Shown here piece after piece: positions 11,700 to 56,713 of a stretch of DNA of 64,000 bases. The stretch comes from Hyphomicrobiales bacterium. GTDB lineage: Bacteria > Pseudomonadota > Alphaproteobacteria > Rhizobiales > Rhizobiaceae. Below the pieces are notes generated by a model. That model ran no database searches, was not told the origin of the DNA, and saw only the letters and a list, made by a program, of their open reading frames with translations. Location of the stretch: NCBI GenBank assembly GCA_900473915.1, contig UCNG01000008.1, forward strand, positions 124,001 through 188,000. The letters run 5' to 3'. Numbering within the stretch: the first letter of the stretch is position 1; each line of letters opens with the position of its first letter. A program made the translations under genes and the position numbers.

Positions 11700-12725
11700 T
11701 CAACGGCTTGCGCTCCATGTTTCCTGCAAATGACGCTGAAGCTGGAATAGTTGCCCCACGTTGCTTTCGTCTTCGGACGACCTTTTTAGTAGCTCGGTCG
11801 GAGAGATGGAAAACTCCTGTTGGAAGCTTTTTACGAACTGACCCGTATTTGAAAAGCCATATTTGAAGGCGATTTCCTTAACCCGCAACTGTTGGTTATC
11901 CTTGTAGCGAATAAGATCGTTTCGGGCCAGTTGCAGCCGCTGCTTTCTGATCAGGCTGGCTGCACCTCCATCCTGCTCCAGCAGTCGATAAAGATGCGAG
12001 CGCGATAAGGCAAATCGCTCGAGTATATGATTAACGTCCAATTTTGGATTATTGATGTTCTGGATTATAAAATCCAGCACCTGATTGCGGAGCTGTTCCG
12101 ACGGAGCACTATGGATATTGTCGTGATCGTGTTTGACAGTCGCAGCAAGCAAATTCAGCAACGCATCACCGCAGGCAACCCCGTCATTGAAGGAAAAACC
12201 GCCTGCCTCGCGATAGGCGCTGCCGAACAAACTCCCAATCAACTTTCCCATTGCGGTGTGAGCCCTAATGATACGGTCCTCCACTTGGGACTTCCCGCAA
12301 ATATATTCGAACTCTTCCTTCGCAAGCATGAGGGAGATTGTTGCCGTAGAGTTGCTGCACACGGCATCGACCTCGGTCATCACCGAAGTGATGTGAATAT
12401 CACCAGCGGAGACGACATCTTCTCGTCCACCGAACACACCCCGGGACCCACCGCTTACGAAAAGCTGAATATAGTAATAATCAATGGAGCGGCGCCTTAA
12501 CCATTCCTGGTTCCGTACGTTGCGATGCCGCCCAAATTCCGATCCTACGATCAGCCGCTCACCAAGGAGATGCGAACGGATGTCGGCGTCAATATGAGCG
12601 GCACCCTCAGAAGGAACTTCCAGCGCGTCATAAAGGGGGGAGACCGCTTCCCGCCAGAAATCCGTACGATCATTTTCTGGCAATGCCTTGTTTGAAAGGT
12701 AAACGCCCTTGGAAGAGTGCTCCAT
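11700..12725 (-). CDS. AraC-family transcriptional regulator
   Basis: 341 residues. The N-terminal half (from FWREAVSPLYDAL) has the AraC-binding-like domain common in this family; the C-terminal 100 residues hold the double helix-turn-helix: LDVNHILERFALSRSHLYRLLEQ and RVKEIAFKYGFSNTGQFVKSFQQEFSISPTELL. The base composition is visibly more AT-rich than its neighbours and the gene sits beside a tRNA and a remnant, so acquisition by transfer is plausible. No adjacent structural gene points to a target. Confidence 0.9.
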   Translation of the reverse strand: MEHSSKGVYLSNKALPENDRTDFWREAVSPLYDALEVPSEGAAHIDADIRSHLLGERLIVGSEFGRHRNVRNQEWLRRRSIDYYYIQLFVSGGSRGVFGGREDVVSAGDIHITSVMTEVDAVCSNSTATISLMLAKEEFEYICGKSQVEDRIIRAHTAMGKLIGSLFGSAYREAGGFSFNDGVACGDALLNLLAATVKHDHDNIHSAPSEQLRNQVLDFIIQNINNPKLDVNHILERFALSRSHLYRLLEQDGGAASLIRKQRLQLARNDLIRYKDNQQLRVKEIAFKYGFSNTGQFVKSFQQEFSISPTELLKRSSEDESNVGQLFQLQRHLQETWSASR

Positions 12726-13009
12726 TTATGTCTTCAGTTCCCGCCGCATTGTTCATTAGCCAATGGTTGTTTAGCACCCTCCTACGGACTATGTCAGCAG
12801 GGGGTTGGCTATCGTCAAGATAAAAATAGCATATGACATGCGCGGATGGCTCCCTGCCGTCCTCTAAGGCACGAAGCGTACCACGGTTCGCGAGCCCTCC
12901 TCTGCCGTTATCCTACCCATGCGGCAACGCTTCACTGGATTGTGGTCAAGCCTGCAATTATATCCAAACCAAAATCCGCCTACCGACAAAAGGCACTCGA
13001 CAAGCGATC

Positions 13010-13429
13010 ATGACCGTTCTCATCAATCAGCCTCACCCGTCCATCGATCCAGCCTCTATTGAAAAGCTGGTGACAACCTTCTACGGACGCGCGCGCGAAG
13101 ATGCCGCCATCGGGCCGATTTTTGCCGAGGCGGTCGATGATTGGGATCATCACATCTCGCAGATCACCGCGTTCTGGTCGTCGGTTATTCTCAAGACCGG
13201 CAATTATGAAGGCCGCCCCATGGCCCCGCATCTGAAACTTGGGCTGAAGAACGAACATTTCGACCGCTGGCTCGATCTTTTCGAAAAGACCACGCGCGAA
13301 ATCTTTCCCCCGGAAGCTGCCATCATTTTCATCGACAGGGCACGTCGCATTGCCGACAGTTTTGAAATGGCAATCGCCACCAATACGGGACAGATCTCCG
13401 CGCCCCGGCATTCCCGACGTGCTCTTTAA
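13010..13429 (+). CDS. Group III truncated haemoglobin
   Basis: 139 residues with the short 2-on-2 globin fold: IEKLVTTFYGRAREDAAIGPIF (helices A-B), HISQITAFWSSVILKTGNYEGRPMAPH (helix E region) and the proximal histidine H83 in LKNEHFDRWLDLF. Group III members bind O2 or NO and may act in stress or microaerobic redox chemistry. The ATG at 13010 is taken because the globin fold starts soon after it; the in-frame codons upstream look non-coding. No clear ribosome binding site is visible. It is divergent from the AraC gene. Confidence 0.88.
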   Translation: MTVLINQPHPSIDPASIEKLVTTFYGRAREDAAIGPIFAEAVDDWDHHISQITAFWSSVILKTGNYEGRPMAPHLKLGLKNEHFDRWLDLFEKTTREIFPPEAAIIFIDRARRIADSFEMAIATNTGQISAPRHSRRAL

Positions 13430-13743: not shown

Positions 13744-13995
13744 ATGAATGAATCCATTCGCGAACTTTTGGCCAAGGTCGGTGGTCTGCCTGGCCCCGTA
13801 ACCGACGTTGCCGATGATGCCGATCTTTACAGCGCAGGCCTGTCCTCTTTTGCCTCGGTTCAGCTCATGCTCGGCCTGGAAGACAAGTTCGATATCGAAT
13901 TTCCGGACCAGTATCTCAACCGCAAGTCTTTCGCGAGCATCAAGGCCATTGAACAGACGGTCACTCAGATACTCAAGGACAAAGAGGCCGCATAA
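13744..13995 (+). CDS. Stand-alone acyl/aminoacyl carrier protein
   Basis: 83 residues with the four-helix carrier-protein pattern. The phosphopantetheine site is S35 in DLYSAGLSSFASVQ; the usual DSL triad reads SSF. The following LGLEDKFDIEFPDQYLNRKSF is typical helix II-III. Its stop overlaps the ATG of the next gene (TAATG), and an amino acid:carrier-protein ligase lies two genes on. In Agrobacterium and Bradyrhizobium, ligases of this type load glycine or alanine onto such stand-alone carriers. This protein is therefore probably an aminoacyl carrier rather than the fatty-acid ACP. Confidence 0.9.
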   Translation: MNESIRELLAKVGGLPGPVTDVADDADLYSAGLSSFASVQLMLGLEDKFDIEFPDQYLNRKSFASIKAIEQTVTQILKDKEAA

Positions 13996-15167
13996 TGAAT
14001 GCCGGAGCGGGGAACAGTCTTTTGGAGCGCGCAGGCCGCGTAGCGGCCATAGCGGGTAAATTTTCCGATAGCGTCGATAAGGAAGGCCGCTTCCCGCGCG
14101 AAGCAATCGATGCGATGAAAGCCGAAGGTTTGCTTGGCATTCAGGTGCCGAGCGAGCTCGGCGGCGAGAGCGCGGAGATCGACCAGATTGCCGAACTGTG
14201 CTGCATTCTGGGCCAGTCCTGCGCGTCGAGCGCCATGATTTTCGCCATGCATCATATCAAGCTTTCTAGCCTGGTGGAGCACGGCCAGACGGTTGGATGG
14301 CACCGGGATTTCATGCACAAGGTTGCGAAGGAGCAGCTGCTGCTGGCCTCGGCAACCACCGAAGGCGGCATTGGCGGCGATCTGCGCAATTCGATCTGCG
14401 CTGTCGAAGTCGAAGGCGACAAGTGCCGTCTGGAAAAGAACGCCACGGTCATCTCTTATGGCTCCCACGCGGATGCCATTCTGATCACATCGCGCTCCCA
14501 CAAGGACGCCGCATCGTCGGATCAGGTGATGACGGTGTTTACGAAAGACCAGTACACGCTCGAAAAGACCCATGATTGGGACACGCTCGGCATGCGCGGA
14601 ACCTGCTCTGAAGGGTTTGTGTTCCGTGGCGAGGCCGACAAAGTACAGATCCTGCCGCATCCTTTCGCGGAAATCGCCGCGCAGTCCATGCTGGCACAAT
14701 CGCATACGCTGTGGAGCTCGCTCTGGTATGGCATTGCCGTTGATGCGGTCAACCGGGCGCAAGCATTCGTGCGTGCCGCCGCAAAGCGCAATCCGGGTGC
14801 GCCACAGCCGGGCGCTCTGCGCGTTGCCGAAGCATCCAACATGCTGCAGATGCTGAAGTCCGAAATCGTTGCCTGCCTCAAGACTTATCGCGAGGCGAAG
14901 CACGATCCCGACAAGCTGGCCTCGATGGGCTTTGCGATTGCGATGAACAATCTCAAGGTTGCCGCTTCGCAGACGATCCTTCAGATCATCAATCACGCCA
15001 TGCTGGTCTGCGGCATCATGGGCTACAAAAACGGTACGCCTTTCAGCCTCGGACGCCATCTGCGCGACGCGCATTCCGCGCAGCTGATGATTTCAAACGA
15101 GCGCATCCTCGGCAATACGGCTACCATGCTGCTCATCCACAAACAGAACACCAGCCTTTTGGGATAA
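13995..15167 (+). CDS. Acyl-CoA dehydrogenase-like flavoprotein of the carrier-protein cassette
   Basis: 390 residues with the acyl-CoA dehydrogenase fold: N-terminal helical domain ([19 protein letters not shown]), the flavin-binding middle strand region ([19 protein letters not shown]) and a C-terminal helical domain ending [19 protein letters not shown]. The standard catalytic glutamate position near the C-terminus is not obvious. The R-x-x-R-D-A-H pattern recalls DszC/HpaB-type flavin monooxygenases of the same fold, so oxidation or hydroxylation of a carrier-bound amino acid is possible. Start and carrier stop overlap by one base, so translation is coupled. Confidence 0.85.
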
Positions 15168-15172
15168 TTGCC

Positions 15173-16081
15173 ATGGATGCTCAGAGATCCTTTCTCGACC
15201 GGCTTTTCGATTCCGGTCTCCTGATCGACACCGGCGTGGAAGGTCTTTACGGACGCTCCGGCCAGTTCGAAGATGTCATCCAGGCATTTGAACGCCTGAT
15301 CGACCGCACCGGAGGCAATGACGGCGCCGAAGCGATCCGCTTCCCGCCCGGCATGAACCGCGCTTTTTTTGAAAAAAGCGGCTACATGAAAAGTTTCCCG
15401 CAGCTGGCTGGCACCGTGCACAGCTTCTGCGGCTGCGAGCTTGACCATATCAATCTGATCAAATGCATGGATGAAGGCAAGGATTGGACGCTGGAGCAGA
15501 AGGCAACGGACATCGTTCTGACGCCGGCCGCCTGCTATCCGCTCTATCCGACCGTCGCCAAGCGCGGGCCGCTGCCGCAGGGCGGCGGGCTTTACGACCT
15601 GCAATCCTATTGCTTCCGCCACGAACCATCGGTCGACCCTGCCCGCCAGCAGCTGTTCCGCATGCGCGAATATGTGCGCATGGGCACGGAAGCCGATGTG
15701 ATGGCGTTCCGCCAGCTCTGGATCGACCGTGGCACGGAAATGATGAAGAAGGTCGGGCTGCCGGTTGAAATCGACGTCGCCAACGATCCGTTCTTCGGGC
15801 GTGCTGGCAAGATGCTGGTCAACAACCAGCGCGACCAGAACCTGAAGTTCGAACTGCTGATCCCGATCACCAGCGTCGAAAAGCCGACCGCCTGCATGAG
15901 CTTCAACTATCATCAGGATCAGTTTGGCTTGAAATGGGGCCTCTCGCTCGATGACGGTTCTGTGGCGCACACCGCTTGCGTCGGGTTCGGACTGGAGCGC
16001 ATCGCGCTGGCGCTCTTCCATCATCACGGTCTGGATGTTGAAATCTGGCCGGAAAATATACGCAAGGAATTGTGGGGCTGA
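15173..16081 (+). CDS. Amino acid:[carrier protein] ligase (class II aaRS-like)
   Basis: 302 residues. It resembles only the catalytic core of the atypical seryl-tRNA synthetase and has no tRNA-binding arm. Class II motif 2 is at [26 protein letters not shown] (residues 146-171) and motif 3 at [16 protein letters not shown] (271-286). C121, E166 and C269 are placed like the zinc ligands of this enzyme group. Known homologues activate glycine or alanine with ATP and attach it to the phosphopantetheine arm of a stand-alone carrier protein. The presumed carrier is two genes upstream. Confidence 0.92.
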
Positions 16082-16089
16082 TCGCACTC

Positions 16090-17070
16090 ATGCAGGCTGT
16101 CTTTCCGAACATCGCGCCCGACCGTTACACGCCGCACGCTTTGCATGCCCAGACGCGTATCTGGCCGGAAACCAACTGCTATGTGGATCTGTGGATCGAA
16201 GTGCTGGCGACCTTGGACGTTGCCCCGGAAGCCATGCTCGGCTTCACGCTGACACAGGATTTTGAGGGCGACCAGTTCACCTTCTTCAAGGTGCCGCTGG
16301 AAGACCTCGAAGCCCTTTATGGCGTACGGGCGACAGAGCTTGCGATTTTCGACCACGTGGAAAGCCATGTCGCCGAGCAGATCGCACGCGGACGGCTGTG
16401 CATGGTTGAGATGGATAGCTACTTCATGCCGGATACGCATGGCGTCAGCTATCGCACCGAACATGGCAAGACCACCATCGCCATCAACCGCATGGACGTC
16501 GAACATCGCCAGCTCGATTATTTCCATAATGGCGGATTCTATCATCTGGAGGGTGAGGATTTCGACGGGGTCTTCCAGCGTCATCTGACTGACGCCGACC
16601 TCCCCTTCCTGCCCTATACGGAATTTGCCAAGTTTCCCAAGCATATGCCGGATGAAGCGCATCAGCGACGCGTTGCTGAAATCCTTCTGCCGCGCCATTT
16701 TGCCCGCAGGCCGAAGGAAAACCCGATCCGCGCCTTTGCGAGCGCGTTCCCCGCTCAGGTGGAAGCAATCGCAGAACGTCCGTTCGGCTTCTTCCATAAA
16801 TATGCATTCAATACGCTGCGCCAGCTCGGCGCCAATTTTGAACTTGCGGCAAGTCATCTTGAGTGGCTCGGACAAGGCAAGCGCTTTGCAACAGCCTCCG
16901 CAGATGCCTTGCAAATCGCGGAAACGGCAAAGGCCGTTCAGTTCCAGCTTGCCCGTGCCGTCATGCGCAAGAAGTTCGACGCATTGGCTGGCACGCTTCA
17001 CCCCGCAGCAGATGCCTGGGATCGGCTGATGGCAGCGCTTGCCACGGAACTTGGTCGCGATGCCGCTTGA
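16090..17070 (+). CDS. DUF1839 family protein
   Basis: 326 residues. The sequence matches DUF1839: ETNCYVDLWIEVL (residues ~25-37), LTQDFEGDQFTFFKVPLEDLEALYG, and VEMDSYFMPDTHGVSYRTEHGKTTIAINRMD. The function is unknown; the last part has a papain-like or C39-like feel (Cys early, His/Asp later) but the catalytic residues are not proven. The ATG at 16090, eight bases after the ligase stop, is preferred; a GTG at 16072 is possible. The GH2 gene starts inside its last codons. Confidence 0.82.
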   Translation: MQAVFPNIAPDRYTPHALHAQTRIWPETNCYVDLWIEVLATLDVAPEAMLGFTLTQDFEGDQFTFFKVPLEDLEALYGVRATELAIFDHVESHVAEQIARGRLCMVEMDSYFMPDTHGVSYRTEHGKTTIAINRMDVEHRQLDYFHNGGFYHLEGEDFDGVFQRHLTDADLPFLPYTEFAKFPKHMPDEAHQRRVAEILLPRHFARRPKENPIRAFASAFPAQVEAIAERPFGFFHKYAFNTLRQLGANFELAASHLEWLGQGKRFATASADALQIAETAKAVQFQLARAVMRKKFDALAGTLHPAADAWDRLMAALATELGRDAA

Positions 17071-19510
17071 AATCAATCCGACGCGCCGCCTGCTCTCGAC
17101 CGGCTGGCGGCTTGTTCTCAGCGGCCCGGATGCAGCGCAAGCACCGCATCACGTCAAGTCCGATGACAGCATCAATGATGCTCCCGTACCCGGAACGGTC
17201 GCGGAGGCTTTGGAAAGTGCCGGACGTTTCGACCGAAAGAACCCCGCGCCCCTCGACAATCAGGACGCCTGGTATTTCCTCGATATCGAGGAAACATCCG
17301 GTCCTGCCACACTCCATTTCGATGGGCTTGCCACCATCTGCGACGTCTTTTTCAACGGCGAATTGCTGTTGCAAACTGACAGCATGTTTCTCAAGCATGA
17401 TCTGCCCGTGACGCTGACCGGCAAGGACGAACTTGCGCTCTGTTTTCGTGCACTCGCGCCCCGTCTTAATCAGAAAGGCCCGCGGGCCCGCTGGCGCACG
17501 CAGCTGATGAACACGCAGGGCTTGCGTCTCGTCCGCACGACCGCGCTTGGCTATATGCCGGGCTGGTGTCCGGAAGTTCATGCCGTGGGTCCATGGCGTC
17601 CGGTTTCAATCAGCCGTCCCGATGCTGAAACCATATCCGGTATCGCAATTCGGGCAAGATTGAGCGAAACAGGTGATGGCGAACTCGAAGCCAGTTTCAG
17701 CTACAGCGGCGAGGCCGAAATACTCACCCTCCATTGCGCAGGGCAACAGGCCACTTGCGAACACCAGAACGGCGATCAGTGGATTGCGAGGCTGACACTT
17801 TCCAATATCGAACCATGGTGGCCACACACCCACGGTAATCCGACGCTTCATGACGTTGAACTTTCGCTCGACGGCGAACTACGCCTGCTGGGGCGCACCG
17901 GCTTTCGCCGCATCGAGGTCGATCGGGGGCCGGACGGCAAGGGTTTTGCACTCAGGATCAATGGCGAGAAGATCTTCTGTCGCGGTGCCGTATGGAGTTC
18001 AGCCGATATCGTTCGCCTTCCCGCCACGCGCCGCGACTACGAACCATGGCTGAAGCTCGCGCAGGAAGCGGGCATGAACATGCTGCGATTGAGCGGCATC
18101 ACCGCCTATGAAACACCGGATTTCTACGCACTTTGCGATGAGCTGGGCATCATGGTCTGGCAGGACTTCATGTTCGCCAATTTCGATTATCCGGTGAAGG
18201 ACGAGGCATTTGTCGGGAACGTACAGGCCGAAGCGCGTCAGCTTCTCACCGTCATCGGACATGCGCCATCGCTGACGGTTCTTTGCGGTGGCAGCGAAAT
18301 CTACCAGCAGGGCGCGATGATGGGCTTGCCGGAAGCAACCTGGAAAGGCCCGCTTTCCGAGGAAATCCTGCCCGGCATCGCAAACGCGCTTTGCCCAAAT
18401 ATCCCCTATGTGCCGAATTCGCCCTGCGATGGCGCGCTGCCCTTCATCAGCAATGAAGGTGTCAGCCATTATTATGGCGTCAGCGCCTATTGCCGTCCGC
18501 TGGAAGATGCACGGCGGGCCGAAGTGCGGTTTGCGACCGAATGCCTCGCCTTCGCCAACGTGCCGGAAGCACGCACGCTGAAAACCCATCTCGATGTGCC
18601 GCCGGTTCACGATCCGCGCTGGAAAGCACGCGTGCCACGTGATCGCGGCGTGTCCTGGGATTTCGAGGATGTGCGCGACGCCTATCTGGAGATGTTATAC
18701 GGTTACGATCCGGCGCGGCTACGACGCGAGGACGTGGAACAATATCTCCACCTTTCCCGCGCCGTTACGGCGGAAGTGATGGAAGCGACCTTTGCCGAAT
18801 GGAGGCGTCCGGGAAGCATCTGCTTCGGCGGGCTTGTCTGGATGTTTCAGGACCTCCTGCCCGGTGCCGGGTGGGGCATGATCGATGCGACCGGCGAGCC
18901 CAAGCCCTCGTGGCACGGCCTCAAGCGCGCCTTCCGTCCGCAGCAGGTCGCCTTGACCGACGAAGGCGTCAACGGCCTTGCGATTCATGTTCTGAACGAA
19001 CGGGCAGAATCCGCTGACTTTTCGCTTGAATTAGCGTGTCTGCGTGCTGGTGTGCAGCCGGTGGTTTCGGGCCGTCGTGAACTTTCGATTGGCGGTCGTT
19101 CAGCGATCACCATCCCGGCAACTGATCTGTTCGGCGCGTTCTTCGATATCACCTACGCCTATCGCTTCGGCCCCCCGGCGCATGACGTGACAGTGGCGCG
19201 ATTGAAACGTAATGATATTACTATCGCCGAAGCCTTTCACTTTCCGCTTGGGCGGAAAGAAGCCTTTCATGACGCCGCTGTCGAAGCCGTCATTGTCGAA
19301 GAAAACGGCAACTGGTTCCTTAATCTCACAGCGCCGGTTCTGGCTCAATCCGTCAGCATCGATGCGGGCGATTGGCACGCAGCGGAGAACTGGTTTCACC
19401 TTGCGCCCAACGCAACCAAACGCGTCGCCCTTCTCCCCCGTACCGAAACACCGGAGAAGCCAACGGGGGAAATTCGCATCGCTGGTTCGTCGCGGATCGT
19501 CTGGTTCTGA
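17060..19510 (+). CDS. GH2 beta-mannosidase-like glycoside hydrolase
   Basis: 816 residues with the GH2 order: N-terminal sugar-binding jelly roll (about 1-170, with AWYFLDIEE and FDGLATICDVFFNGELL), an Ig-like domain, a TIM barrel and C-terminal beta domains. The acid/base glutamate fits E413 (in CGGSEIYQQ) and the nucleophile E494 (in FATECLAFANVPE), as in beta-mannosidases. There is no signal peptide, so it acts in the cytoplasm. The ATG at 17060 overlaps the DUF1839 stop by 11 bases. It is unusual company for carrier-protein chemistry and may act on a glycosylated product or precursor. Confidence 0.88.
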   Translation: MPLEINPTRRLLSTGWRLVLSGPDAAQAPHHVKSDDSINDAPVPGTVAEALESAGRFDRKNPAPLDNQDAWYFLDIEETSGPATLHFDGLATICDVFFNGELLLQTDSMFLKHDLPVTLTGKDELALCFRALAPRLNQKGPRARWRTQLMNTQGLRLVRTTALGYMPGWCPEVHAVGPWRPVSISRPDAETISGIAIRARLSETGDGELEASFSYSGEAEILTLHCAGQQATCEHQNGDQWIARLTLSNIEPWWPHTHGNPTLHDVELSLDGELRLLGRTGFRRIEVDRGPDGKGFALRINGEKIFCRGAVWSSADIVRLPATRRDYEPWLKLAQEAGMNMLRLSGITAYETPDFYALCDELGIMVWQDFMFANFDYPVKDEAFVGNVQAEARQLLTVIGHAPSLTVLCGGSEIYQQGAMMGLPEATWKGPLSEEILPGIANALCPNIPYVPNSPCDGALPFISNEGVSHYYGVSAYCRPLEDARRAEVRFATECLAFANVPEARTLKTHLDVPPVHDPRWKARVPRDRGVSWDFEDVRDAYLEMLYGYDPARLRREDVEQYLHLSRAVTAEVMEATFAEWRRPGSICFGGLVWMFQDLLPGAGWGMIDATGEPKPSWHGLKRAFRPQQVALTDEGVNGLAIHVLNERAESADFSLELACLRAGVQPVVSGRRELSIGGRSAITIPATDLFGAFFDITYAYRFGPPAHDVTVARLKRNDITIAEAFHFPLGRKEAFHDAAVEAVIVEENGNWFLNLTAPVLAQSVSIDAGDWHAAENWFHLAPNATKRVALLPRTETPEKPTGEIRIAGSSRIVWF

Positions 19511-19515
19511 CTATT

Positions 19516-21303
19516 TCAAGGCCAAGGATATTTCAGGGACAGGGAACGGATCGCGTCGATATATATTTTGCGCGAATGCTCCGGCGTCAGATTATGATCA
19601 GCATCGGGAACAATGGCTACCGACACATTGTCGAAGCCTTGCACGCCGCTGCCAGCCTGATCGAAATAGAAATTGAAATGTTCGCGTCCGGTATCCTTTT
19701 CAGCATAGACCAGCGCCAGCGGCACCTCGCGCTGCTTCAATTCGCCAAAGGCTGAATAAACCGCCCTCCCTTCCGGCGAGCGGCTGCGCAGAAGCTTGCG
19801 TGCCAGCCCGCGAACACGCCCGACAACCCCGCGCGCAAGATTGCGCAGGATGGCGCGGATATCCAGTTCACCACGGAACAGACGCAGGAATGTTTCGACG
19901 CGGAGTGCGCGGCTGCCATAATCCTCCAGCGTGCGATTGCCTTCACGAACGGCATCGTCGACCGAACGTCCCGGTGCCCAGTAAAACGTAACCGGATTGA
20001 CCAGAACCGCGCCGGAAATGCGCTCATCCTTGACGGCACAGTGGAAGCCCATAAACGCACCGCTGCACCGCCCTGCCACAATGGGCCGCCCCCAGCCAAG
20101 AGCGTCGAGATAATCAAGGGCTTCGGCAACATCGGCCTCTGGAGCCTGGGTGTAGAGCACCTGTTCCGGCATGCCCGGATTGGGCGGGCTATCGCCAGCA
20201 TTGGCAATATCGAAGCGCAGGGATGCTATCCCGTCCCGCGCGAGCTTGCGCGCCATATCGACGGTGGTGCGGCCCCACCCGATCCGCCGGTCATAGGATG
20301 AGGACAGGAACATGACCGTCCGGCCCCGACGCTGGCCCTGAGGCGCACAGAGAACGCCGGAAAGACGATTGCCCGAGCCGAAAGAAACGGGCGTCTCGAC
20401 AAAGCCATCGCCGGTTAAGGTGCCGCCGAGAGCGCTTTCGTCCGGCCTGTTTTGCGGGGGCCTGGAGCCAGCAAGACCAGCCACCCAATCGACAAGCCGG
20501 TCCGCGACCTCCAGCGGCAGGCGCGAGATAACGGGGTTCGAAATCAGCTTGTCGTAATCGGCAAAAGCCTCAACCGTCACCTCCGCGCCGAGCTTCTCCA
20601 GATGCGCCGCGAGTTCGGCATCGTTCGGGCGATCTGTGCGCGCCAGCAGAAGACATTGCGGTGCAGGCGCCACTTCCAATGACAGAAGATTGATCTTCTT
20701 CACATCGGCAGCCACCTCCGGCTGCATCGTCAACGACGCGATGGAAACACTGTTCTTGATTCTTTGCTCGTCCGTCAGCCCCAGATCGGCATCGACCATG
20801 CTCGACCAGACAGCCAGTTCGCGCGTGTAGAACCGTCCGGAAATAACCGGAGCCAGGAGCGCCAATGCCGCAATGCCGTCGATCCGGGCTGCGGTTTCGG
20901 CGGCAACCGCCGCACCAAGGCTTTGCCCGATAATAACGACGCGGCTTGCCCCTGAAAGGGCGCGTGCTTTCCGGGCGGCCTCGACCAGCGTAACGCGCCA
21001 GAGGTCCATACCTTTTGAAAAATCGATATCGTCGCGTCCGTCGCCGGTGCCGGGCCAGTCAAAACGGAAGGACCCTATGCCCCGCGCCGAAAGCCTATCA
21101 GCGATGATGCGCCAGAACTTTCGCGTCGTGCAAAGTTCCTCAAGCCCCCAGGGGCTTGCAAACAGGACAACCGTATCGAGGGCTTGCCCCGCGGGCCGCT
21201 CATAAAGCCCGAGCGTATCGCAGAAAACGACAGGGCTGGCGGCAGGCCGCATGATATTTGCCGATTGCCCGAAGGATGTCGTGTTTTCCACCCTGTCATC
21301 CAT
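19516..21303 (-). CDS. Double-domain alpha/beta hydrolase
   Basis: 595 residues with two alpha/beta-hydrolase domains in tandem. The first has the nucleophile elbow GQSLG (S128) after FRFDWPGTGDG; the second has GRCSG (S414) after LRFDIANAGDSP, and ends with PDADHNLTPEHS carrying a probable catalytic His. Similar domains occur in exopolysaccharide-associated esterases. The ATG at 21303 is chosen; an upstream GTG at 21408 is possible. It converges on the carrier-protein cassette with only five bases between stops, so it could be the thioesterase or deacylase of that pathway. That link is inference. Confidence 0.82.
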   Translation of the reverse strand: MDDRVENTTSFGQSANIMRPAASPVVFCDTLGLYERPAGQALDTVVLFASPWGLEELCTTRKFWRIIADRLSARGIGSFRFDWPGTGDGRDDIDFSKGMDLWRVTLVEAARKARALSGASRVVIIGQSLGAAVAAETAARIDGIAALALLAPVISGRFYTRELAVWSSMVDADLGLTDEQRIKNSVSIASLTMQPEVAADVKKINLLSLEVAPAPQCLLLARTDRPNDAELAAHLEKLGAEVTVEAFADYDKLISNPVISRLPLEVADRLVDWVAGLAGSRPPQNRPDESALGGTLTGDGFVETPVSFGSGNRLSGVLCAPQGQRRGRTVMFLSSSYDRRIGWGRTTVDMARKLARDGIASLRFDIANAGDSPPNPGMPEQVLYTQAPEADVAEALDYLDALGWGRPIVAGRCSGAFMGFHCAVKDERISGAVLVNPVTFYWAPGRSVDDAVREGNRTLEDYGSRALRVETFLRLFRGELDIRAILRNLARGVVGRVRGLARKLLRSRSPEGRAVYSAFGELKQREVPLALVYAEKDTGREHFNFYFDQAGSGVQGFDNVSVAIVPDADHNLTPEHSRKIYIDAIRSLSLKYPWP

Positions 21304-21438
21304 GCCCGATGCATCCCTAATCACAGAAGTACCATCCTGCAATAATGGAAATCGTGCACAGCACCAAGGATTTATCGCAACGTTTGCGAAAGCATAGCCC
21401 TGCCGCACATCGGGCGCGGCAGGAGTGCAGTCTGAAGA

Positions 21439-53587: not shown

Positions 53588-54055
53588 TCAGCCGCGTGAA
53601 GTCGGCGCTTTCGACAGCAGTACCGTCCGGATTGCGAAACTGGAGTGGATGCGCGCGACACCGGGCAGCCGGGACAGGATTTCCTTGTGGATGATTTCAT
53701 AGGCCGCCGCATTTTCGGCCTCGACGCGGAGAATATAATCCGCATCACCCGTCATGAGATAGCATTCCTGCACTTCCGGGTGCCGCCGCACGGCTTCCTC
53801 GAAACGGTTCAGAAACTCCTCGGTCTGCCGGTCCAGCGTGATGCGCACAATGGCGACCAGCCGTTCATCGCCATCGGATGAACCGACAATGGCCGTATAG
53901 CCGCGGATAACGCCGCTTTCCTCCAATATCTGCACCCGCCGCAGGCAAGCGGACTGCGAAAGCCCCACTTCGCCGGCAAGTTGGCTGTTGGTCATGCGCC
54001 CATCACGGCGCAGGCAACGAATGATATTGCGGTCTATGCTGTCGAGCGTTGACAT
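53588..54055 (-). CDS. dadR: Lrp/AsnC-family regulator of alanine catabolism (DadR-like)
   Basis: 155 residues: N-terminal helix-turn-helix (LDSIDRNIIRCLRRDGRMTNSQLAGEVGLSQSACLRRVQILEE) and a RAM domain (EVQECYLMTGDADYILRVEAENA). It is divergent from dadX-dadA. In related bacteria the equivalent regulator activates those genes when alanine is present, so the name follows from position and family. Confidence 0.9.
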   Translation of the reverse strand: MSTLDSIDRNIIRCLRRDGRMTNSQLAGEVGLSQSACLRRVQILEESGVIRGYTAIVGSSDGDERLVAIVRITLDRQTEEFLNRFEEAVRRHPEVQECYLMTGDADYILRVEAENAAAYEIIHKEILSRLPGVARIHSSFAIRTVLLSKAPTSRG

Positions 54056-54296
54056 GAATTTTCTTCAATCCACGAGCTAAAATATGCGCAAGATGTGCGA
54101 AAATTCGCACAATATACGACAAATAGCAAAAACATTCGAATAGTCTTCAATTAATATATGAGCAAGCTTTAGGGTGAGGAATAGCAAGGTTTCTCTCCCC
54201 GAATTTTATATGCTTCGGTCGGCAGCCAATCCACACGGACAGCGACCCTCCAAGCGTTCTCGCAGGATAGCGGCCAGTCTGGAAAGAACCGTATAA

Positions 54297-55448
54297 ATGG
54301 TTGATATGTCGATGCAATTTTCACAAGGTGAACGCGACCTTGCTGCCGGTGGCATCCTGACCATCGATCTTTCAGCCTTGCGTCACAATTATTCGGCCAT
54401 TGCCCGCCGCATCGCTCCCACCCGTGCCGCTGCCGTCGTCAAGGCGGATGCCTATGGGCTTGGCGCCTGCCGCGTCGCGCCTGCATTTTACGATGCCGGT
54501 TGCCGCGATTTCTTTGTCGCCCATCTCGGCGAAGCCGTTGCGCTCAAGCCTTTCCTGCAGCCCGATGCGACGCTTTACGTTCTGAACGGTCTTCAGCCTG
54601 GAACGGAAGCTGCCTGCGCTCGCGAAGGCATTTTGCCAGTGCTCAACTCGCTCGAACAGGTTGAAAACTGGGTGGCGCTCGTCGCCAGACAAGGCAGGAA
54701 GCTGCCTGCCCTGCTCCAGCTCGATACCGGCATGTCGCGTCTTGGCCTTTCGGCCAGTGAATTCGACCGCCTGACGGCCAATCCTGCGCTACTTGACGGC
54801 ATTGACGTAAAATTCGTCATCAGCCATCTGGCCAGCGGCGACGAGCCGGAAAATGCGGCAAACGCGCGCCAGCTTGCCAATATGACGGCCCTGCTGGCGC
54901 GACTACCGAAACTTCCGGTTGCCTTTGCCAATTCCGGCGGCAGCTTCCTCGACAAGACCTATCATTTCGACCTGGCCCGCCCCGGCATCGCGCTCTATGG
55001 CGTTGGTCCAGAGACTGGAGAAAACCCGATACTTCCGGTTCTCACCCTTTCGGCACGTGTCATCCAGGTACGTGACATCGATAAGGGTGCGGCGGTCGGC
55101 TATGGCGGCACCTATGTCGCCAAAGGTCCGATGCGGGTTGCAACAATTGCTGTCGGTTATGCCGATGGCTGGTTCCGTTCCCTCAGCAACAAGGGGTCGG
55201 CCTTCTTCGGCGAGACGCGCCTGCCGATTATCGGACGCGTATCGATGGATTCGATCACGCTCGACGTCAGCGCATTGCCGGCGGGCACGCTGAAACTCGG
55301 CAGCCTTGTGGAACTGATCGGTCCGCACCAGCGTCTTGAAGACGTGGCACGCGACTGCGACACCATTCCCTATGAAATCCTGACTGCGCTCGGCAACCGT
55401 TATGCCCGTGTCTACGTGGACAGCGGCGCGGGCGACATAAAAGCATAA
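54297..55448 (+). CDS. dadX: Catabolic alanine racemase DadX
   Basis: 383 residues. The PLP lysine lies in [13 protein letters not shown] and the catalytic tyrosine in [28 protein letters not shown]. It interconverts L- and D-alanine, here to feed DadA, whose gene starts 14 bases downstream. The ATG at 54297 is used; ATGs at 54306 and 54312 are in frame and cannot be excluded. Confidence 0.94.
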
Positions 55449-55462
55449 GACAAGAGGCGAAC

Positions 55463-56713
55463 ATGCAGATCACCATCCTCGGCAGCGGCGTCATCGGCGT
55501 TACGACCGCTTACTACCTCGCCAAGCTCGGTCATGAGGTAACCGTTGTCGACCGTGAAGAAGGCCCGGCGCTGGAAACGAGCTTCGCCAATGCGGGTCAG
55601 GTCTCGCCGGGCTATGCATCGCCCTGGGCAGCACCCGGCATTCCGTTCAAGGCCGCAAAATGGCTGTTCCAGAAGCATGCCCCGCTTGTTCTGCGCCCCA
55701 CCTGCGACCCGGTTCAATATAGCTGGCTCCTGCAGATGCTCGCCAACTGCACCGACAGCCGCTACAAGGTCAACAAGACCCGCATGGTGCGCGTGGCCGA
55801 ATATGCGCGCGATTGCCTTGTCGACCTGCGCAAGGAAACCGGTATCGAATATGACCAGCGCATGCAGGGCACGCTCCAGTTGTTCCGCGAGCAGTATCAG
55901 CTTGACGGCATCGGCAAGGACATAGAGGTGCTGCGTCAGGACGGCGTGCCGTTCGAAGTGCTTGACCGCGACGGCTGCGTGAAGGTGGAGCCGGCCCTTG
56001 CCCATGCGAAGGACAAGTTCGTCGGTGGCCTGCGCCTGCCACATGACGAAACCGGCGATTGCTTTAAGTTCACCAATGCGCTTGCGAAAATCGCCGAAGG
56101 ACTTGGCGTGAAATTCCGTTTCGGCGTCAACATCAAGTCGCTGCTGATGTCCGGCGGCAAGGTTTCCGGCGTCGAGACGTCCGAAGGCGTTCTGACCGCC
56201 GACCGCTATGTCGTTGCGCTTGGCAGCTATACGCCCGCGCTCGTCAAATCGCTCGGCCTCAACGCGCCGATCTATCCGGTGAAAGGCTATTCCATCACCG
56301 CTCCGATCATCGATGAAAGCCGCGCGCCGGTTTCAACCGTTCTCGATGAGAGCTACAAGATCGCCATCACCCGTCTTGGCGACCGCATCCGCGTTGGCGG
56401 CATGGCGGAAGTGTCGGGCTTCACCAAGGATCTGCCTGCCGCACGCCGCGCAACGCTCGACCTGTCGGTCACCGACCTGTTCCCCGGCGGCGACCTCAAG
56501 GCAGCGACCTTCTGGTCGGGCCTGCGTCCGATGACACCGGATTCCACGCCGATCATCGGTGCAACGCGCTACGACAACGTGTTCATCAATGCCGGTCATG
56601 GAACGCTTGGCTGGACCATGTCCTGCGGTTCCGGCAAACTGCTCGCAGACCTTATTTCCGGCAACAAGCCGGATATCCGTGCCGACGATCTCGGCATTTC
56701 CCGCTACGAATAA
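55463..56713 (+). CDS. dadA: D-amino acid dehydrogenase DadA
   Basis: 416 residues. The N-terminal FAD motif [20 protein letters not shown] and the flavin-contacting [20 protein letters not shown] are typical of DadA; the C-terminus has [22 protein letters not shown]. It oxidises D-alanine to pyruvate and ammonia at the inner membrane. AGAGG lies before the ATG. It forms one transcription unit with dadX. Confidence 0.96.

Follow-up and report, generated by a model that had tools for sequence, protein, structure and literature searches.

The window analysed here is a stretch of 64,000 nucleotides from a Hyphomicrobiales bacterium (assembly GCA_900473915.1, contig UCNG01000008.1, positions 124,001–188,000). 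At 13744–19510 on its plus strand lie five genes for a carrier protein, a flavoprotein, an amino acid:carrier-protein ligase, a DUF1839 protein and a GH2 glycosidase. An alpha/beta-hydrolase gene belongs to the cassette as its sixth gene. With a probability of about one half, the block serves to join an oxidised amino acid from the carrier, glycine in the likeliest case, to a sugar in the precursor of a surface polysaccharide. DUF1839, to which the initial annotation gave no role, is the leading candidate for the step in which the loaded amino acid is used.

Structure of the Cassette

The genes of the cassette are as follows.

13744..13995, plus strand: stand-alone carrier protein (83 amino acids; PF00550 32.6 bits; NF005480 120 bits, cut-off 72)
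13995..15167, plus strand: acyl-CoA-dehydrogenase-fold flavoprotein (ACAD; 390 amino acids; matches to Acyl-CoA_dh_N and _1)
15173..16081, plus strand: SerRS-like amino acid--[carrier protein] ligase (302 amino acids; NF005479 513.7 bits, cut-off 357; PDB 4h2w 4e-96, 3mey 6e-91)
16072..17070, plus strand: DUF1839, predicted papain-fold, carrier-protein-dependent aminoacyl transferase or amide synthase (PF08893 473.7 bits, cut-off 22.5; Cys36, His131, His152)
17060..19510, plus strand: GH2 beta-mannosidase-like glycosidase (PF22666 51.5 bits; Glu413 and Glu494 invariant)
19516..21408, minus strand: sixth gene, tandem alpha/beta-hydrolase (630 amino acids; TIGR03100/TIGR03101-like; GRCSG, Cys447)

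The initial annotation described five genes packed with overlaps or gaps under 10 bases, and this packing is present. The carrier-protein stop and the ACAD start have one base in common (13995), and the gap between ACAD and the ligase is 5 bases. The DUF1839 gene overlaps the ligase gene by 10 bases if it starts at GTG 16072, or follows it after 8 bases if it starts at ATG 16090, the start position of the Phyllobacterium homologue. The overlap between DUF1839 and GH2 is 11 bases with the GH2 start at ATG 17060; an alternative open reading frame start at 17039 is TTG. The five genes stand as annotated, and their count rises to six with the hydrolase.

Conservation of the Block

The samples comprise 349 genomes across the phylum, 297 genomes of the window's order, 80 genome-contig loci and plasmid records. 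Twenty divergent loci of the order were picked by low DUF1839 scores. Loci from related genomes are not independent of one another.

DUF1839 is found in 15 genomes of the phylum sample and the ligase, above its cut-off, in 25. The ligase and GH2 flank DUF1839 in all 15, and the remaining 10 ligase genomes have ligase and flavoprotein without DUF1839. In the order sample, 64 genomes have the ligase and 49 have DUF1839. The DUF1839 gene is the immediate 3' neighbour of the ligase gene, on the same strand, in 49/49, with 30–454 bases between the matched stretches; one of these genomes (G536) has DUF1839 in two split matches. The complete five-gene order is present in 78 of the 80 genome-contig loci, and likewise in all 20 divergent loci. 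The closest of the 80 is from Brucella (Ochrobactrum-type) pseudintermedia with 96% DUF1839 identity, which makes an Ochrobactrum-type origin of the window probable. Chance co-location is ruled out by the 49/49 and 20/20 linkage. The earlier proposal that the genes act as one unit is borne out by these counts together with 15/15, and the genes do not occur apart from one another in most relatives.

Two of the 80 loci are incomplete. One contig starts inside the ACAD gene (L069). The other locus (L076, Rhizobium leguminosarum Vaf-46) is a decayed copy of the cassette, because about 4 kb of upstream DNA is present and yet the carrier and ACAD genes are absent, the ligase is reduced to residues 140–302 and GH2 is partial. 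A likewise decayed copy, with ligase residues 140–302 left, is seen in NZ_CP018229.1 from an R. leguminosarum Vaf strain.

Among the plasmid records, 94 match the ligase and 59 match DUF1839; the 59 belong to Rhizobium, Azospirillum, Mycetohabitans, Caballeronia, Cupriavidus, Burkholderia, Shinella, Methylobacterium and Phyllobacterium. No sampled genome has DUF1839 without the ligase. By the genome and plasmid counts, the carrier-flavoprotein-ligase trio is a separate module, onto which DUF1839 and GH2 are joined as a pair.

The core module has another use in three loci (L148–L150), where flavoprotein-ligase pairs lie near a homoserine O-succinyltransferase-like gene; L148 and L150 also have a pyridoxal phosphate-dependent enzyme of Cys/Met metabolism (Pfam check for L150 only). 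On a Priestia megaterium plasmid (L005, 2869–16692), the trio is found with its own holo-ACP (acyl carrier protein) synthase, an ATP-grasp gene, an alanine permease and an alanine racemase, and a D-Ala-D-Ala ligase is nearby. The set resembles a cluster for an alanine-analogue antimetabolite that includes its own self-resistance copies. Ligase-like genes below the family cut-off (L194–L201) are in mixed contexts, and the search of viral contigs for the ligase gave three matches at 25% identity.

DUF1839 as a Putative Transferase

DUF1839 was assigned as papain-like in 2023 with the site Cys-Thr/Ser-His (PMC10318531). Aligned with VIA-align, the predicted structure of DUF1839 has the CcbD/CtaG-type overall fold, a papain core with C-terminal helices. 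Cys36 (codon 16177–16179) is at the N-terminus of helix 36–47 of the model, as expected of a nucleophilic cysteine. It is present in 123 of the 130 alignment rows covering the position (some genomes were fetched more than once). His152 is seen in 131/131 rows and His131 in 130/131. Both are candidates for the histidine of a CcbD/CtaG-type Cys-His-Glu/Asp triad.

The seven exceptions, with Arg or Gln at this position, come from three genomes only: G257, G330 and Cupriavidus campinensis. In all three, another DUF1839 that does have the Cys lies about 4–8 kb away or on another contig. The Cys-less copies inside cassettes (L008, L151, L152) are Cupriavidus-type. Loss of the cysteine from the cassette is thus confined, in these rows, to genomes where a second DUF1839 could supply the activity. 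Cupriavidus metallidurans likewise has DUF1839 at two places.

The lincosamide condensation enzyme CcbD/LmbD, with CtaG, AziU3 and BtrH, is one of the closest known types. DUF1839 has 10–13% identity to these proteins and no Pfam overlap with BtrH_N. Its donor would be loaded by a SerRS-like ligase, and a flavoprotein and GH2 accompany it, unlike the CcbD/LmbD systems. The DUF1839 profile gave nothing significant against PDB sequences (best E 0.14). Membership in BtrH_N by sequence was also considered and is ruled out by hmmscan and hhalign.

Carrier Protein, Ligase and Flavoprotein

The phosphopantetheine serine of the carrier is most likely Ser35 in GLSSF, which we assign by comparison with the DltC motif. 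The ligase is a member of the amino acid:carrier-protein ligase family (NF005479 and PDB matches listed above), as the initial annotation had it. Cys121, Glu166 and Cys269 are invariant in 11 ligase sequences and are candidates for the metal-binding Cys/Glu/Cys. Orthologous ligases are glycine-specific, with glycine as the main substrate. A relative is reported to load a carrier (PMC2922099).

The flavoprotein matches Acyl-CoA_dh_N and _1 above the cut-off, and its middle domain is below it. The best PDB match is butyryl-CoA dehydrogenase (1.7e-22), followed by DnmZ (7e-21) and a KijD3-type structure (7e-20), so that no clear choice is given. We take the latter two to be amino-sugar N-oxygenases of the nitrososynthase type. 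The L-prolyl-carrier dehydrogenase RedW is among the NCBIfam matches.

The usual position of the catalytic Glu is occupied by Ile in 23 of 24 flavoproteins and by Val in one. The alternative base position has Ser, Ala, Thr or Cys and is never acidic in the 24 sequences. These positions presumably correspond to the catalytic Glu sites of medium-chain acyl-CoA dehydrogenase and isovaleryl-CoA dehydrogenase. A plain acyl-CoA dehydrogenase is rejected, as the Glu is missing from both positions in 24/24; the earlier label "acyl-CoA dehydrogenase-like" holds for the fold and fails for an ordinary enzyme of this kind. His237 and Trp240 are invariant. An Asp or Glu three residues past the first base position is seen in 23/24 and could be a catalytic residue. 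A glycyl thioester has no beta-carbon, so its alpha,beta-desaturation is impossible. Since the dehydrogenase Glu is also absent, oxidation at the nitrogen or at C-alpha is likely the reaction of the flavoprotein.

GH2 and the Tandem Hydrolase

Glu413 and Glu494 of GH2 are invariant in 14/14 sequences. By motif we take them to be the catalytic glutamates, with GGSE as the acid/base motif in place of the usual NE. The GH2 family profile matches the beta-mannosidase 5n6u (5e-84) at profile positions 34–797, and no signal peptide is evident by eye. The protein should be an active cytoplasmic beta-glycosidase. The suggestion of the initial annotation that it acts on a glycosylated product is compatible with the intact glutamates.

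The hydrolase gene is within the flanks of 48 of the 80 genome-contig loci and 11 of the 20 divergent loci, and of none of the 40 control segments described below. It is convergent to GH2 in the window and in Phyllobacterium, and inside the operon in Azospirillum and Mycetohabitans. The first of its two hydrolase domains has the usual Ser only in the window protein (1/13), and the second has a Cys nucleophile (G-x-C-x-G) in 13/13 sequences. Against the exosortase-associated families TIGR03100 and TIGR03101 it scores 74 and 66 bits, with cut-offs of 168 and 203. By these scores it is a tandem relative of both families and not a member.

Association with Polysaccharide Genes

Ten genes served as polysaccharide-assembly markers. 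At least one is present in 10 of the 20 divergent cassette loci, compared with 1 of 40 control segments of similar length, drawn from 19 of these 20 genomes, and with none of 10 loci that have the ligase only. In five divergent loci (L176–L180) the order is cassette, hydrolase, WbaP-like initiating transferase. Among the 80 genome-contig loci, a marker for a flippase or for a glycosyltransferase is present in 27; the Pfam names were checked on one representative each. Hydrolase and flippase are in one open frame in 11 of the 80 loci, all Rhizobium-type, and adjoin on the same strand in 11 more. In Tsukamurella, the ligase, the carrier and a weak hydrolase relative lie inside a polysaccharide cluster. 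In NZ_CP034999.1 (547352–552957) and NZ_CP092353.1, both of Rhizobium, an "exopolysaccharide production repressor protein" annotation lies under the match at the cassette.

The cassette of Burkholderia stagnalis has a CRP/FNR-type gene on one side and a gene for a VpsR-type sigma-54 activator on the other, likely berB and berA. Genes for WbaP-like, ManC and Wzc-like proteins are in the same 33 kb, and so is the tandem hydrolase, with 30% identity across 91% of the query. The bep exopolysaccharide genes of Burkholderia cenocepacia are Bcam1330–1341, including the TIGR03100 hydrolase Bcam1334; berB is Bcam1342 and berA is Bcam1349 (PMC3584217, PMC5552954, PMC9684580). The B. stagnalis DNA that runs from the CRP/FNR gene through to GH2 has a B. 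cenocepacia match at 85% over 98%. Based on the B. stagnalis gene order and these two tags, the cassette most likely fills the slot Bcam1343–1348, six tags for five genes; the placement comes from gene order, not from locus tags.

The Bep locus (bepA-L, berA, berB), one of the closest known systems, contains a TIGR03100 hydrolase and, by the B. stagnalis order, the cassette itself. As far as the accessible text of the published accounts goes, bepA-L and the regulators are listed, but no names are given for what lies between berB and berA (PMC3584217). Nothing was found in the open-access literature for Bcam1343–Bcam1348 or I35_5194–I35_5198. Bep was obtained by extraction in 0.3 M NaOH, and its analysis was done in NaOD (PMC7084887). 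Such alkali would strip esters from the polymer, and an amide on an amino sugar would survive.

Proposed Pathway and Alternatives

Taken as a whole, the block could be a carrier-protein pathway of the cytoplasm in which a modified amino acid is attached to a sugar, most likely one on the precursor of an exported surface polysaccharide. The ligase would adenylate a small amino acid, probably glycine as in its relatives, and load it on the phosphopantetheine of the carrier. The flavoprotein would oxidise the bound aminoacyl group at the nitrogen or C-alpha, to an imine or glyoxylyl group or to an N-hydroxyl or oxime. From its fold, conserved Cys and gene order, DUF1839 is predicted to accept the carrier-bound acyl group on Cys36 and to hand it to a sugar amino (or hydroxyl) group, as CcbD does. 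The Cys-type tandem hydrolase, sometimes fused to a flippase, may work beside export as an editing thioesterase or a second acyltransferase. In the least certain and weakest step, GH2 might trim or recycle a beta-linked glycoside intermediate in the cytoplasm.

A more detailed version can be put forward only tentatively. It is an uncharacterised decoration in which the Glu-less flavoenzyme oxidises the carrier-bound amino acid and the papain-fold Cys transferase attaches it to the lipid-linked repeat unit in the cytoplasm, just before the flippase to which the hydrolase is fused in some rhizobia. The Burkholderia target would be the biofilm polysaccharide controlled by cyclic di-GMP. If so, an ester-linked group on this polymer would have been missed because the polymer was alkali-extracted.

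Several observations weigh against a polysaccharide acceptor and against a CcbD-like DUF1839. No marker is found in the flanks of 10 of the 20 divergent loci, and none of the ten marker genes is in the window. The Ochrobactrum-type and Agrobacterium loci among the 80 have no marker in their flanks either. The marker queries were drawn from cassette loci, which favours that set in the comparison. The hydrolase is not within the flanks of 32/80 and 9/20 loci. Within the block there is no glycosyltransferase, flavin reductase or electron-transfer flavoprotein. The Bep repeat unit contains only galactose, glucose and mannose, with no amino sugar and no amino acid, in the accessible part of the report (PMC7084887). 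As for DUF1839, hmmscan of 3 proteins gave no match to BtrH_N (PF14399) up to E 10, and hhalign gave a probability of 2.4% using 7 of the 12 BtrH_N loci. Besides, the catalytic partners differ as published, Cys-Thr/Ser-His in DUF1839 and Cys-His-Glu in CcbD.

The absence of any marker from the flanks of 53/80 genome-contig loci also speaks for the strongest alternative, which is still unlikely. Here the block makes a diffusible small molecule from the oxidised aminoacyl group and an amino-sugar-like acceptor, kept as a glycoside until GH2 or the hydrolase frees it, and the polysaccharide genes are neighbours in some lineages only. CcbD serves a small-molecule pathway, according to the part of its literature consulted. 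An exporter of the major facilitator superfamily is beside the cassette in Phyllobacterium, and the trio occurs in the antimetabolite-like Priestia plasmid cluster with its ATP-grasp, alanine racemase and D-Ala-D-Ala ligase genes. AziU3, CtaG and BtrH, of the same fold, likewise act in small-molecule pathways. At L193 (5216–8551, genome G298), three genes form one run: the first is ligase-like (28% identity, below cut-off), another resembles a transporter, and the third is a marginal match to BtrH_N (30.4 against 29.7 bits). A gene near them looks ketosynthase-like by eye; perhaps the same logic of loading and transfer is used there in a natural-product cluster. However, markers are enriched at cassettes (10/20 compared with 1/40), the hydrolase-flippase fusion is found in 11/80 loci, and the block has no consistent exporter, resistance gene or acceptor-making gene.

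That the acceptor is a lipid or protein instead of a polysaccharide precursor, with aminoacylation of the Dlt, elongation factor P (EF-P) or mycothiol type, is quite improbable. The carrier is DltC-like by profile (NCBIfam E 2e-7, below cut-off), and a note of 2010 likens the system to the mycothiol, bacillithiol and EF-P pathways (PMC2922099). Nevertheless, the block has no MBOAT, lipid or target protein gene, and a glycan fits better with the constancy of GH2 and with the flippase fusion. The least probable alternative is that the flavoprotein is a normal dehydrogenase of carrier-bound acyl groups and supplies a peptide-like product with a dehydroamino acid, derived for example from alanine; the best single structure, the RedW match and the Asp/Glu in 23/24 agree with it, but neither of the two base positions is acidic, glycine, the main substrate, cannot be desaturated, and the block has no peptide-synthetase-type condensation enzyme.

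Relation to Known Systems

Another of the closest known systems is Dlt, the D-alanylation of teichoic acids, in which a stand-alone carrier protein bears the amino acid that modifies a surface polymer. The predicted role of the block has this carrier-borne donor and surface polymer in common with Dlt. Unlike Dlt, the block has no MBOAT protein DltB and no DltD, and the predicted transfer precedes export, with a Cys enzyme acting in the cytoplasm.

The initial annotation saw in the system a candidate for something undescribed, which does not hold. The neighbourhood was reported in 2010 in a note added in proof (Biol Direct 2010 5:48; PMC2922099), where Atu2574 was predicted to ligate an amino acid to a sugar amino group and the redox enzyme to modify the amino acid; the papain fold of DUF1839 followed in 2023 (PMC10318531). 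Common to the 2010 system and the cassette are the ligase, the carrier, the redox enzyme, a conserved open reading frame, the glycosidase, polysaccharide genes and the predicted ligation to a surface sugar. The conserved frame, Atu2574, is taken here as DUF1839, which follows the ligase in Agrobacterium tumefaciens (L035, L058). In its accessible text, the 2010 account gives no counts, fold or catalytic residue and mentions no sixth gene, no fusion with a flippase and no link to Bep. The outline of the cassette was foreseen in 2010, and the transfer enzyme and the polysaccharide tie are now testable.

Within the open-access texts as far as they could be consulted, no mention was found of the CcbD-type fold match, the compensated Cys loss, the sixth gene and its fusion to a flippase, the polysaccharide association with its controls or the position in Bep. 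In the same literature a single paper came up for DUF1839, and Atu2573 appears in a transcriptome study only. No open-access paper was found that gives the fate of the carrier-loaded amino acid. For carrier-loaded amino acids together with exopolysaccharide, nothing was pertinent by title and abstract among the matches listed.

Ligases that load amino acids on carriers have been known since 2010. DUF1839, if it is a transferase, turns the question of their fate into a two-protein assay. The block is present in about one-sixth of the sampled genomes of the order (49/297), including plant-associated rhizobia, and in a Burkholderia biofilm polysaccharide locus. Based on this distribution, biofilm or host-facing polysaccharides may carry a group added by the block that has been overlooked and is possibly charged.

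Neighbouring Genes

Upstream of the cassette, one regulator gene lies in the window, whose link to the cassette is only possible.

11700..12725, minus strand: AraC-family regulator (PF12833 51.8 bits)

Between this gene and the carrier, a small open reading frame at 12833–13429 on the plus strand has no Pfam or NCBIfam match; by eye we take it to be globin-like. A locus with an Lrp-type regulator at 53588–56713 of the window has no link to the cassette. The genes beside this regulator are, presumably and by eye, alanine racemase and D-amino-acid dehydrogenase genes of an ordinary dad-type locus.

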